Shown here piece by piece: positions 1,240 to 8,974 of a stretch of DNA of 43,453 nt; within the stretch, counting starts at the first letter, position 1; each line of letters starts with the position of its first letter. The stretch comes from Acidobacteriota bacterium (GTDB taxonomy: Bacteria > Acidobacteriota > UBA6911 > RPQK01 > JAJDTT01). A model generated the notes under the pieces. The model had not been told where the DNA came from, did no database searches, and saw only the letters and a list, made by a program, of their open reading frames with translations. The position numbers and the translations under genes were made by a program. The stretch is from the NCBI GenBank assembly GCA_028874215.1, contig JAPPLF010000009.1:1-43453 (forward strand), written 5' to 3'.

Positions 1240-3567
1240 TCAACGCCACTTCTTGTAATGTTGGCGCATTCGCGGAAGTGCTCGACGGAATCTTTCGTCA
1301 ATCCGGCCGTAAAGTTCAATCAAGCGCTTTTCCTTCTCCTCACGGCTCATCTTCTTCGAGATCCGGATGCGATCTCCCGTGCGGCGGGTTCTCGAAGCCA
1401 CCCGCCGGACACGATCCATGTAGTTTCTGACACTTCGGACCCGAGGACGAGTCCTCGCGAAGGCGCGGAACCAATCCGAGATCTCGTAAAATTCGTTGCT
1501 GTACCGCGTGTATGTTCTGAACCTTGGCGGCTCCAGGCTGGCGAAGCCAGTGATCAGACCAGCGAACCGGGGAAACGGTTTCGGCCCTTTCTGGTTTGCA
1601 CTCCACATTAATTCGTCAATGCCTGTCACCACCACGTTTCCAAGATGGCCGGTCCACCCGCGGGCGAACGTTTGTACGTGCAGCGGTGACACGCCGAGAC
1701 TTTGGCCAACCACCCGGTACAGCTCGGGTGTCGACCGTGGGAAGTATTGTTCTTCGGGCAGCCAATCCTGCATGTAAGCCGGGATGATCTCGCCACCGAA
1801 GAAGTTGCGGTTGGTTCGGATCTCGACGACCGGTTGCGCGATTGCGGGAATCCACCCAATCGCCAGATTGCCGTGAATCAGCGCCCAGATGAACCGGGGA
1901 CCTGCCAGCGTGTCGGTGCCGGCGGCGAGGTCAAGTGCCACTTCCGGCACTTTCATGAATGTGGCGCCGATCTGGAACGGCGTCGGGAGGCGAATGTCGC
2001 GGTCGCCAGCCACATCGTACAACGTTACCCAAGACGCCTTCTCGTATTCAGTCTCCGCCTGGTACGCGGCAAGGCGCGCTTCATCCGATGTGTTGTAGTA
2101 CCAGACGCCCCCGGTCATCAACGCAAGGCAGAGCCCGGCGGCCAGCACCTTTCGAATATGTCGCGTCTGCTCGCGGCTCCGCAACGGGTCGCCACGGTGA
2201 GCCCGCGCCCGACGTCGACCGATCTGATAGAGCTGATCGAGGCCTTGGATCGCAGCGTTCAGGAAAGGCACGGTGTGTACGTACATCCGCCAAGTCCGCG
2301 AGGCCCCGATGTTGGCGAAATCGGCGGAAATCATACGGGCCGCTCGAGCGGCCGCGTATTTCGTTGCGCCATGCTCAAGAGCCTTCCTAAACTGGCTGAC
2401 CCGCGTGCCTGCCTCCGTAATCCACGCCGGTCGCGTGAGCAGGTAGACAATGCGGGAAACCCGGCGCGTGAGCTTCGTCAGGGTGGCCGAGCCCACCCGC
2501 TGGTCAGCAAAGTGCGTTTCGGATTCGACCAAGGCCGAGAAGAATCCACCTTGAAGCAGATACTCGCGCATCACTTCGGATCGGCCGGTCGCGAGGTCGT
2601 GGATGGCATGAGCGCTTCCCGTGAGCGTGGAAAAGAACGGGACCTGCCAGTAACGCCCGGCCACGAAGCCCGACAACGTATCGCGAAAGAAATTCTTGAC
2701 GATAAACATCGGCATCGTGGTGATCATCGCGGACACGGCGGACTTGAAGGCTGCGAGCCAGCGGATAATAGAAGGCATCGGGTCTTCGTAGAGGCTCTGG
2801 AGCATTACTGTCACGGCCTCGTCGTGGATCGTGAACCGTGTCCGACGGCCCTGGATTAATGCACTCGTGGTGTAGCGTCGCTCGCCCCTCGTCGCCTTGC
2901 GGGCAATAGAACTCCCCTGTGGATGCCGGACGAGCGTTTCGAATAGCTCGGCCTTCGCGCGAGCGACCAGGGCATTGTAGATGTTGCGTTCGAAGGCACT
3001 GCGAAGAGCGGCAGTCAAATCCTCCGGGATTTTGCCTGCTTCTTCGGCCGGCCCCCATTCGGCATCTGGGTCGCCGCCGACGAGTGGAGATAACAACGGG
3101 ATCGAGTGGGTTCTCCAGTACTCGGCTTCGGCCGGTGTGAACAACCGCATCTGGACGTAATACCGAAGCATCCCTCGGTGTAAGGCGACGATACGATTCG
3201 CGAAGACCTGGATATCGGGGTGCTGTTCGGCGTACCGCTGAAGCTCATGGTACTGTGGTTGTTCCGAGATATACGCGTATCGGATCGCGTTGAGCAAATG
3301 CGGGCGGCCTTTGGCGGCGACGGGTGCGATGACATCCCGCAGACTGTATGTAACGCTGCCGCGTCGCGTTTCCCTGCCGGATCCGTCGACGGATTCCTCG
3401 AAGAGGCCGTAGCGCCAGATATATTCTGCCAACGACTTGGCGTGGTTGATGTGCTTGAAGTGCTCGCCAACGCCATCGTTGCCGAACCGTTCACCGATCG
3501 TCTGCGCCGCGTGCCAACGGTGAACGAATTTCGTTCGTGCAATCCGCAGTTGTTCTCGGCTGAGCAT
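1240..3567 (-). CDS. LPD38-like protein, related to C-terminal part of giant phage polyvalent proteins
   Basis: A 775-aa protein, mostly helical and basic. Its middle (about residues 250-500) resembles the LPD38 (large polyvalent protein-associated domain 38) region known from the C-terminal ends of multi-thousand-residue phage and prophage proteins: a membrane-active stretch SAMITTMPMFIVKNFFRDTL, then ADFANIGASRTWRMY and a second hydrophobic helix (VLAAGLCLALMTGGVWYY, about residue 470). A Pro/Arg-rich tail follows (IPAIAQPVVEIRTNRNFFGG). In phages such proteins are thought to be virion-internal or injected. Here the module stands alone: its ATG (3565-3567) lies seven bases after the stop of the J-domain gene, with its own Shine-Dalgarno overlapping that stop, so the gene is not simply cut off. 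The family call rests on recognition by eye of the sequence pattern. Function in this cell is unknown. Confidence 0.6.
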   Translation of the reverse strand: MLSREQLRIARTKFVHRWHAAQTIGERFGNDGVGEHFKHINHAKSLAEYIWRYGLFEESVDGSGRETRRGSVTYSLRDVIAPVAAKGRPHLLNAIRYAYISEQPQYHELQRYAEQHPDIQVFANRIVALHRGMLRYYVQMRLFTPAEAEYWRTHSIPLLSPLVGGDPDAEWGPAEEAGKIPEDLTAALRSAFERNIYNALVARAKAELFETLVRHPQGSSIARKATRGERRYTTSALIQGRRTRFTIHDEAVTVMLQSLYEDPMPSIIRWLAAFKSAVSAMITTMPMFIVKNFFRDTLSGFVAGRYWQVPFFSTLTGSAHAIHDLATGRSEVMREYLLQGGFFSALVESETHFADQRVGSATLTKLTRRVSRIVYLLTRPAWITEAGTRVSQFRKALEHGATKYAAARAARMISADFANIGASRTWRMYVHTVPFLNAAIQGLDQLYQIGRRRARAHRGDPLRSREQTRHIRKVLAAGLCLALMTGGVWYYNTSDEARLAAYQAETEYEKASWVTLYDVAGDRDIRLPTPFQIGATFMKVPEVALDLAAGTDTLAGPRFIWALIHGNLAIGWIPAIAQPVVEIRTNRNFFGGEIIPAYMQDWLPEEQYFPRSTPELYRVVGQSLGVSPLHVQTFARGWTGHLGNVVVTGIDELMWSANQKGPKPFPRFAGLITGFASLEPPRFRTYTRYSNEFYEISDWFRAFARTRPRVRSVRNYMDRVRRVASRTRRTGDRIRISKKMSREEKEKRLIELYGRIDERFRRALPRMRQHYKKWR

Positions 3568-3574
3568 CTCACCC

Positions 3575-4327
3575 CTAGGAGACGCGGCCGCACGACGGGC
3601 ACACCTTCGGTTTATCCTCCGCCTTTATTGCCATTCTGAGCACCAGCAAATACCCCAGCACAAACGCCAGCACTCCAACCATGTCACCTCGTGGTTCTAT
3701 GGCCGACGGCGATGGCGGCGGCCGCCCCACAAGCAGCGACGCCAATACCAGCATCAACCACACTCCCGACCAGAGCAATAATAGAGCTACCATCACCATA
3801 ATTGAGAACATGAATCCCAAGAAAACCACGGCCACCGTCCACTTCGTCCACGCCCAGCTAAGCTGGACGATTAGAGGCAGCTTGGTCCACCGGCGAACCA
3901 CACTTTCACAGTCGTCACAGACGGGTTCGGTTCCGTCCTCTCCGCGAGCGGCGTGCTCGGCACGCGCCCATTCCGAGCGGCGACGCGCATCCTCGGCCTG
4001 TTGGCGCTCCCACTGCTCGTACTCTTCTCTTTCAGCCTCTTCAGCCTGTTGCTGGCGTTGGCGGGCACGCTCGGCCTGCCTCCGCACATTGTTCTCCTGT
4101 GCGGTTGACGGGCGCTCTTGTTCCCCCGACCGCATATCATTGGCGACACGGAGAGTCTCATACGCCCTCTGAATCTCTCTGAAGATCCATTCTGATGCTT
4201 TGTCTCCCGGATTCTTGTCCGGATGATATTTCTTGGCTAAACGCAGGTAAGCTGTTCTTACGTCATCTGTCGTCGCACTGCTGTCCAGGCCCAACACCTC
4301 GTACGGATTGGTGACTCTGCGTGGCAT
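3575..4327 (-). CDS. J-domain protein with C-terminal membrane helices and two CxxC pairs (paralogue 1)
   Basis: A 250-aa protein. Residues 8-60 are a J domain with the HPD tripeptide at 35-37 ([16 protein letters not shown]), which in this family stimulates the ATPase of an Hsp70 partner. Residues 70-130 are a highly charged Gln/Arg/Glu coiled coil. Hydrophobic segments lie at about 164-200 and 215-234. One CxxC precedes the membrane segments (C137/C140) and another closes the protein (C243/C246), so the two pairs could together hold a zinc ion. No DnaJ zinc-finger repeat or substrate-binding domain is present, so this is a class C co-chaperone, not DnaJ itself. The LPD38-like gene follows after seven bases. 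A paralogue lies at 5371-6015. Base composition is lower in GC than in the rest of the window, which suggests transfer. Confidence 0.85.
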   Translation of the reverse strand: MPRRVTNPYEVLGLDSSATTDDVRTAYLRLAKKYHPDKNPGDKASEWIFREIQRAYETLRVANDMRSGEQERPSTAQENNVRRQAERARQRQQQAEEAEREEYEQWERQQAEDARRRSEWARAEHAARGEDGTEPVCDDCESVVRRWTKLPLIVQLSWAWTKWTVAVVFLGFMFSIMVMVALLLLWSGVWLMLVLASLLVGRPPPSPSAIEPRGDMVGVLAFVLGYLLVLRMAIKAEDKPKVCPSCGRVS

Positions 4328-7375: not shown

Positions 7376-7429
7376 GACTCCCCCGCAACAGGGTAATTTG
7401 ATGAATCGCGAATCTTCCCGGAGACAAAC

Positions 7430-8974
7430 ATGCAACGCTGGATCCTAACTCTCCTGGCCGCGGCCCTTCTCCATGGTTCTCCCGGCGCCGAGGCTGAAAA
7501 AAAACCGCCGAACCTGATCGTATTCCTCACCGACCAGCAGCGGGTCGACACGCTGGGCGTCTACGGCAACAAGCAGATCCGGACGCCCCACCTGGATCGG
7601 CTGGCCCGGCGAAGCTTCGTCTTCGACTCCTTCTACGTGTCCAACCCGGTCTGCACTCCCTCCCGGGCCAGCCTGCTCACCGGGCTCTACCCCCACAAGC
7701 ACGGCTCGTGGAAAAACAGCATCCCCCTGGATCCCAAGGTGCCGATCCTGGTGGAAATGCTGCACGACCCCGAGTACGCCTCCGCCTACTACGGCAAGTG
7801 GCACCTGGGAAACGAGATCTTCAGGCAGCGGGGCTTCACCGACTTCGACAGCACCGAGATCTATCAGAGGTGGTGGTCCGAGGATCAGGATCATTCCCGG
7901 CGCTCCGGCTACTACCACTTCCTGAAGGAGAAGGGGATCGAGGCGGATACCCCCTACGGCCATTCCCGCGACCTGGCCAACCGCCTGCCCAAGGAACTCT
8001 CCAAGCCGGTCTACCTGGCCCGGCGGGGGATCCGGTTCCTGGAGCAGCACAAGGACCGGCCCTTCGTCCTCTATCTGAGCTTCCTGGCGCCCCACGCCTT
8101 CGCCGATCACAAGCAGGGGCCGCCCTTCACCAACGTCTACGGGGACCTTTACGACCCGGCCGACATGCCGATCCCCGATTCCTTTTTCCAACCGATGGAC
8201 CCCACCGTATCCTTCGCCAAGCGGCAGATGCGGCTGGCGTTGATCCGGGGCGAGCTTCCCATCGCCTATCCCCAGACCGTCGAGGAGCTGAGGGACGCCA
8301 TGGCCCGCTACTGGGGCCTGGTCACCCTGGTGGACGAAATGGTGGGCCGCGTGCTGGACCGGCTTCGGGAATTGGGGCTGGAGGAGAACACCATCGTCGT
8401 CTTCACCAGCGAGCACGGCGAGATGCTGGGCGACCACCGCCTCATGTCCAAGATGAACAGCTACGAGGAGGCGGCGAAGGTACCGTTCCTGCTTTCGATC
8501 CCGGGATTGTGGGACCGCTCACGGCGCGTCGGGAAGCCCGTGAGCCAGGTGGATGTGACACCGACCCTGCTGGACCTGATGGGGCAGCCGCTGCCCGAGC
8601 ACCTGCAGGGAGAGAGCTGGGCCGCTGACCTGCGCTCGGGACGGGAGTTCCCCGACCGGGACATCCTGGTCGTCAGCGACGAACAGGGTTTCAGCCATCC
8701 CTGGAACCGGCGGCACGTCTACCAGCACCGGACCCTGGTCACGCCCGAGGGTTGGAAGCTCACGGTGAGCTCCGCCGGCGACGGGGAGCTCTACCACCTG
8801 GGCCGCGACCCCAAGGAGATGCGGAACCTCTATTTTCTTCCGGACTACCAGGACCAGGTTCGGGAAATGTGGGCCCGGCTTCGGGTTCGCCAGAAGGAAG
8901 TGGAGGATCCCGTGGCAATGGATCTGAACCAGCCCTGGCCCCAGCGGAGGGGCGGACAGCCGAAGTTTCCGTGA
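7430..8974 (+). CDS. Secreted sulfatase 1 (formylglycine-dependent)
   Basis: A 514-aa type I sulfatase. The ATG at 7430 is preceded by GGAG, and residues 1-22 form a signal peptide (LLAAALLHGSPGAEA), so the enzyme acts in the periplasm or outside the cell. The metal-binding start NLIVFLTDQQRVDTLG (D35) is followed by CTPSR at 75-79, the CxPxR motif whose Cys is converted to formylglycine by a separate maturase not present here. GKWHLG and, later, SEHGEMLGDH supply further active-site residues. Length is normal for the family. It hydrolyses sulfate esters, most likely on a sulfated glycan; the exact substrate cannot be read from the sequence. Its stop overlaps the start of the next sulfatase (GTGA), so the two are translated together. 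Confidence 0.93.
   Translation: MQRWILTLLAAALLHGSPGAEAEKKPPNLIVFLTDQQRVDTLGVYGNKQIRTPHLDRLARRSFVFDSFYVSNPVCTPSRASLLTGLYPHKHGSWKNSIPLDPKVPILVEMLHDPEYASAYYGKWHLGNEIFRQRGFTDFDSTEIYQRWWSEDQDHSRRSGYYHFLKEKGIEADTPYGHSRDLANRLPKELSKPVYLARRGIRFLEQHKDRPFVLYLSFLAPHAFADHKQGPPFTNVYGDLYDPADMPIPDSFFQPMDPTVSFAKRQMRLALIRGELPIAYPQTVEELRDAMARYWGLVTLVDEMVGRVLDRLRELGLEENTIVVFTSEHGEMLGDHRLMSKMNSYEEAAKVPFLLSIPGLWDRSRRVGKPVSQVDVTPTLLDLMGQPLPEHLQGESWAADLRSGREFPDRDILVVSDEQGFSHPWNRRHVYQHRTLVTPEGWKLTVSSAGDGELYHLGRDPKEMRNLYFLPDYQDQVREMWARLRVRQKEVEDPVAMDLNQPWPQRRGGQPKFP

Follow-up and report, generated by a model that had tools for sequence, protein, structure and literature searches.

Can a module of phage giant proteins become a gene of the bacterial cell, and what would it do there? 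A contig from an Acidobacteriota bacterium raises this question with a gene for an LPD38-type protein that stands alone. The stretch analysed here, called the window, comprises 43,453 nucleotides (G000:C9:1-43453) and is the first part of a 56-kb contig in a genome (G000) of 5.7 Mb. The original prediction weighed two origins for the gene, a split-off domain that had found a cellular role and a recent phage fragment captured in frame. Judged from sequence, the solo LPD38 genes are likely a domesticated, selected and chaperone-linked cellular family with a putative role in defence.

A complete LPD38 gene among J-protein genes

The LPD38 gene occupies 1240..3567 on the minus strand and encodes a protein (P0001) of 775 residues, with an ATG start and no internal stop in the full open reading frame. 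A Pfam profile search assigned residues 501-656 to LPD38 (PF18857) with an E-value of 1.6e-26 and a score of 94 bits, above the cut-off of 27; no other Pfam family matches P0001 at E <= 1. The prediction of a complete stand-alone gene therefore stands, and the similarity on which it depended is strong. Identity to ten relatives is 57-72% along almost the full length, which rules out chance as the source. The hydrophobicity peaks of the LPD38 protein are marginal (1.4-1.7).

The gene belongs to a minus-strand run of J2 (6015-5371), P0006 (5330-4743), J1 (4327-3575), LPD38 and P0003 (1249-545). J1 precedes LPD38 in transcription, as had been predicted, and encodes a J-domain protein of 250 residues (DnaJ, E 3.9e-18 in Pfam) with the HPD motif and two strongly hydrophobic stretches that are flanked on each side by a CxxC pair. 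Between its TAG stop (3575-3577) and the LPD38 ATG lie the 7 nt GGGTGAG. This order makes the purine-rich run AGGGGTGAG overlap the J1 stop, and the ribosome binding site expected to be embedded there is indeed visible as a Shine-Dalgarno-like sequence (3568..3577, minus strand). At the other end of the LPD38 gene, the GTG start of P0003 (234 residues with a C-terminal hydrophobic helix and no family match) overlaps it by 10 nt. J2, whose GTG start was set by alignment with J1, encodes a second J-domain protein that is 37-38% identical to J1. Both combine a J-domain bearing HPD with a hydrophobic helix, as DjlC-like membrane-anchored J-proteins do. Inspected by eye, the CxxC pairs on either side of the two hydrophobic stretches of J1 (3575-4327) could come together in the cytosol as a single zinc ribbon. 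The 195-residue P0006 has no significant family, and a HEPN assignment for it was dropped at E 0.093.

Upstream of LPD38, where J1, P0006 and J2 lie, no remnants of a polyvalent protein were seen by Pfam searches and, for J1, PHROGs. P0001 itself has 775 residues and one C-terminal module, not the several domains in one large polypeptide by which polyvalent proteins are recognized, and the scanned neighbours are J-proteins, unnamed and cellular genes, not phage late genes. PADLOC gave no match for P0001, J1 or P0003, and no BREX gene was seen in the operon.

Synteny with the congener G001 begins at 7401 and shows 88% identity over 7401-8000; left of the edge at 7400..7401, G001 carries unrelated genes and gives no match to LPD38. 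This edge rests on one congener, as the G003 contig ends close by and the G002 contig starts inside. The LPD38 gene was found in one of the four genomes of the family, all of one genus, and in one of the 38 of the class; together with the synteny edge, this places the operon in a variable region. At the island place, G001 has a gene of 369 residues (L232:790-1899) whose N-terminus appears J-like by eye, without HPD.

Homology to phage giant proteins, age and selection

The homology extends well beyond the Pfam domain, with nearly all 775 residues corresponding to the C-terminal module of phage proteins. A profile of 836 positions, built from 11 solo sequences, was aligned with the giant LPD38 protein of Vibrio phage VvAW1 (3640 aa): its positions 13-795 correspond, as two colinear blocks, to the C-terminal ~870 residues of that protein. 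Four further phages give a similar but less complete alignment. Three PHROG families (1636-3427 positions) match the LPD38 protein near their C-termini. The sequences are distant: of the 50,697 phage records searched, 45 reach E <= 1e-3, with 28.8% identity over residues 232-667 in the top match, and among the hits listed at that threshold the solo and phage sequences share 22-29% over the part aligned by tblastn. The statement that LPD38 normally ends a phage protein of several thousand residues is borne out for its position and less so for the length. Among 97 phage reading frames with the module, a set in which some phages are counted twice, the end is seen in 92, and in these the match stops 2-275 residues before the C-terminus; frames closed at both sides range from 505 to 3165 residues, two of them below 1000, and 13 annotated phage LPD38 genes span 504-3640 residues. 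The shortest phage version seen is the LPD38 protein of HTVC010P (L105:2267-3781).

The predicted fold leads to the same kinship. AlphaFold run on 10 solo sequences only gave a pLDDT of 43.5, and that model was discarded; with 46 phage rows added (56 in total) the pLDDT reached 87.7 and the pTM 0.88. The resulting model matches viral proteins with a best TM of 0.79 (normalised to query length), among them named polyvalent proteins and phage C-termini. A Foldseek search against the PDB returned nothing at E <= 0.001, a PDB sequence search returned no match up to E 5, and neither PDB search detected similarity to T7 gp16. VIA-align gave middling matches (best Z 7.4), mostly over residues 685-775. 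Twelve residues, F288, N292, R295, D296, G340, E385, R389, F417, A438, E542, S627 and P628, are invariant in all 56 rows.

In trees of 92 of the 105 collected sequences (one fell below the coverage filter and 12 were duplicates), the 11 solos form one clade (FastTree support 1.0, UFBoot 100) with a stem of 1.15 against a depth of 0.33 within. On midpoint rooting, a 32-tip clade joining the solos to VvAW1-like phages, their candidate nearest relatives, receives UFBoot 100 but a FastTree support of 0.298. We infer that the module passed from phage to cell, given the wide phage diversity and these midpoint-rooted trees. All 55 solo pairs give dN/dS of 0.134-0.266; many of them are saturated (dS > 1), and the pairs with dS of 0.17-0.44 give 0.15-0.24. 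We found solo genes, or fragments of them, in 16 genomes, namely G000, G004 and 14 of the 395 drawn from the phylum of G009. The relatives presumably come from sponges, going by isolate names. G006, drawn within the phylum of G009, bears a doubtful label of Gammaproteobacteria. G471, G012 and G596 hold decayed or partial copies only, and G696 only an LPD38 end at a contig edge. Within the phylum of the window, any LPD38 at E <= 1e-5 was found in 4 of 396 genomes, and the other three lie in open frames of 1255, 2298 and 4204 residues. Near relatives of the solo clade were found neither in plasmids nor in viral contigs, the latter searched with peptide patterns that catch close relatives only, so that the absence in viral contigs is one of near relatives.

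These results bear on the suggestion that the gene is a recently captured phage fragment without function. The phage homology accords with such an origin, but the long shared stem, the recurrent gene neighbours and the low dN/dS (0.13-0.27) mark the solo LPD38 as no recent fragment, and the dN/dS refutes loss of function unless the alignment is wrong; we find this explanation scarcely credible. The alternative of a split-off domain fared better: a single clade under purifying selection, present in distant bacteria and with no near relative in viral contigs, agrees with it, and the cellular role in that proposal stays putative.

Chaperone, regulator and BREX neighbours

Gene neighbours of the other stand-alone versions were then compared. 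J-proteins with hydrophobic helices recur: with J1 as query at E <= 1e-12, eight matches (J1 and J2 included) were found in 7 of 19 genomes, all within LPD38 gene runs. The J-gene lies 5' of LPD38 in the window and 3' elsewhere, so the pairing occurs in two orders. Viral contigs hold 27 loci that match P0002 over the J-domain region. At other places the LPD38 gene is followed by an Hsp70 module, which comprises cc344, Hsp70, a kinase/AAA gene, TerB and g661. The module follows an intact LPD38 in G011. G623 has two diverged copies, each after the C-terminal part of an LPD38 gene at a contig edge, and the Hsp70 of the second is ~54% identical to that of G011; in G006, cc344 lies ahead of the contig end. 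Of the 395 genomes drawn from the phylum of G009, 14 carry LPD38, and four of these 14, but no other genome, have the kinase/AAA gene at E <= 1e-80. It is present there in five copies; in four, cc344 is preceded by LPD38 or a remnant of it, and a contig end cuts the locus of the other copy (G008:C15). The related loci share descent, so none of these neighbour counts are independent. The marker cc344 is present in 5 of 16 genomes, with no match in G000. Several kilobases 3' of LPD38 in G009 and at G008:C165 are free of J, Hsp70-module and BREX neighbours, and G004 shows no J or Hsp70-module match before the contig ends.

G449 (L090:8270-20000) holds an intact LPD38-J pair in tandem with a degraded LPD38 that precedes cc344, Hsp70, kinase/AAA, TerB and g661. 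Here the terminal stretch of the J-protein is 54% identical to residues 580-658 of g661. A C-terminal domain with the pattern RWC.RED...YN.RC..FRYR.GDLE.ARREVG is common to the J-protein (L090:11645-11878) and the otherwise different g661 (L030:9087-9330). A J-like N-terminus of g661 with the motif NPFHVLGL was dropped at an hhalign probability of 7%.

The recurrence of J or Hsp70 genes beside LPD38 could also point to an abortive-infection effector held by chaperones, in which LPD38 would insert into the membrane of its own cell and depolarise it once infection titrates the J/Hsp70 machine. Passages of PMC7159879 describe conflict systems that are chaperone-thresholded and include HSP70 and DnaJ, and hydrophobic stretches occur in the proteins of the LPD38 locus. 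The LPD38 protein, however, matches no solved structure, and the fusion in G591 described below suggests DNA, not membrane, as the target, so we regard this effector as decidedly unlikely.

A BREX system adjoins one LPD38 locus, that of G591. There the LPD38 gene is a single open frame of 993 residues, 50% identical to P0001, and its C-terminus carries a ComEA-like HhH domain (PDB 2duy, E 7.3e-9). It is followed on the same strand by brxA, brxB, brxC, an AAA gene, a gene for 209 residues, pglX, pglZ and brxL, where BrxB, BrxC, PglZ and BrxL are assigned by annotated matches, BrxA by position and size, PglX by size, place and one methylase-named match, and the two genes between brxC and pglX by eye. 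Two small genes on the opposite strand lie between pglX and pglZ. LPD38 thus heads an apparently complete BREX operon (L092:5446-8424; L234:6950-18149), and this LPD38 protein has a longer stretch than its relatives between the N-terminal part and the LPD38 core. A second contact with BREX involves the module without LPD38: on the Haliscomenobacter plasmid pHALHY02, a related Hsp70 module, 39% identical in Hsp70 and kinase/AAA to the LPD38-linked one, adjoins brxL and pglZ, which lie on the opposite strand. To our knowledge, LPD38 is not a described BREX gene. PADLOC, applied only to 53 other genes at 12 LPD38 places, matched BrxA, BrxB and BrxC with one protein each, and likewise one protein for each other family among the 25 listed. 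In Pfam, the 25 of 67 families listed for these 53 neighbours are mostly repeat, metabolic and surface families. The passages of PMC7159879 and PMC11090510 on Hsp70, TerB and BREX contain no description of this operon.

A regulatory set recurs as well. At eight loci HTH117 and u311 are transcribed divergently from LPD38, with a DUF932 gene behind them at five of these; a ninth locus has u311 without HTH117. Such genes may be the regulators of an integrative element or satellite that carries LPD38, which would still act in its early invasion as an entry or establishment factor. The scattered occurrence (1 of the 38 genomes of the class), the several copies per genome (three in G008, two in G006) and the decayed copies in G471, G012 and G596 agree with mobility. 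So do integrases near LPD38: G005 encodes one of phage type 3.7 kb beyond the gene, G009 has an rve integrase core, and the 53 neighbours include two matches to phage integrase. The DUF932 protein resembles the "phage/plasmid-like protein" model TIGR03299, with 53.8 bits against a cut-off of 110.7, and passages of Iyer et al. (PMC5512222) describe several LPDs that stand alone next to T4SS genes or genes for phage structural proteins. Against this, the neighbours scanned showed no genes for phage structural proteins, portal, terminase or a T4SS among the 25 of 67 Pfam families listed, and near relatives are missing from the viral contigs and plasmids searched. The regulators also occur apart from LPD38: u311 is found in 10 of 16 genomes, and in G000 (C15) and G004 (C32) it accompanies HTH117 on contigs other than that of LPD38. 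HTH117 has one weak match in phages. On balance, an element of this kind is somewhat unlikely. At the G000 place (L124:9337-11513), the HTH regulator, the u311-type protein and a second HTH lie among polysaccharide genes.

A putative role at DNA entry and comparison with known systems

The reading that we prefer, with a probability of roughly 45%, is that the solo LPD38 protein is a domesticated phage module that became a chaperone-handled part of a defence island, probably acting at the membrane where injected DNA enters. Several passages on phages frame this proposal: polyvalent proteins are regarded as co-transferred with the invading DNA (PMC5512222), the LPD38 giant protein gp69 of JC1 (4515 aa) was detected in purified virions by mass spectrometry (PMC9144972), and T7 gp16 refolds once ejected while its C-terminal part crosses the inner membrane (PMC8954989). 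The C-terminal ~870 residues of such a virion-carried giant protein would have become a bacterial gene in a variable island. The predicted protein is helical and may have marginally hydrophobic, membrane-seeking helices. A cellular copy could need chaperones for solubility and membrane placement, which fits the membrane-anchored J-proteins; these would recruit Hsp70, which would keep LPD38 soluble and place or release it at the inner membrane. There LPD38 may encounter phage DNA as it enters, or the corresponding part of the injected giant protein, and then jam or report entry, with partners (kinase/AAA-Hsp70-TerB or BREX) acting on the signal. The two contacts with BREX loci and the DNA-binding fusion would favour defence at DNA entry. 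In its most specific form the idea is one of decoy-type immunity at the injection step, derived from a phage entry protein, in which chaperone-loaded LPD38 would work at the membrane to intercept what the phage delivers there, DNA or injected protein, through interchangeable partners, whether membrane-anchored J-proteins, Hsp70-kinase/AAA-TerB or BREX with the fused HhH; we put this forward as a tentative possibility.

A phage-unrelated function is also conceivable, in which J1, J2 and LPD38 would form a membrane-proteostasis operon for envelope quality control. The hydrophobic helices of J1 and J2 suit it, and passages of PMC8215388 describe DjlB and DjlC as tail-anchored J-proteins thought to serve HscC as partners at the membrane. 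The phage kinship of LPD38, the island location and the BREX operon of G591 speak against it and make it highly unlikely. Defence at the point of DNA entry, our preferred reading, would imply that bacteria may have taken over a phage weapon, the solo LPD38, as a part of their defence. LPD38 recurs in phage giant proteins, and the solo form offers access to the module: at 775 residues and with a confident model, it is a tractable protein for learning what the module does. The chaperone linkage and the single BREX linkage allow a direct test of whether a phage entry module was made into defence. Passages of PMC5512222, PMC9144972 and PMC12779148 contain no description of a cellular solo LPD38 family; the last, on Edwardsiella, names an "LPD38 domain-containing protein" as mutated and says nothing further about it.

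Compared with known systems, the operon resembles the E. coli DjlB/DjlC - HscC locus in having membrane-anchored J-proteins within a chaperone locus and differs from it by the LPD38 partner, the absence of an Hsp70 and the two hydrophobic stretches with CxxC pairs in J1. The Hsp70 - kinase/AAA - TerB module of pHALHY02 comprises the same five families as stand behind LPD38 in G011, G449 and G623, but LPD38 is missing there and its cc344 family was not found in the genome of the window. BREX (brxA-brxB-brxC-pglX-pglZ-brxL) follows LPD38 as an apparently complete set in G591, whereas no BREX gene was seen in the window. Pelagibacter phage HTVC010P gp20 (504 aa) is likewise a short protein bearing the LPD38 core, covering model positions 302-674 of 836, but its gene neighbours in the phage encode tail and virion proteins, and it falls on another tree branch. 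From the polyvalent (DarB-like) giant proteins of the VvAW1/JC1 type, finally, the solo protein differs as a separate cellular gene with chaperone neighbours and without the methylase, helicase or transglycosylase part, yet it is colinear with their C-terminal ~870 residues and shares their predicted fold.
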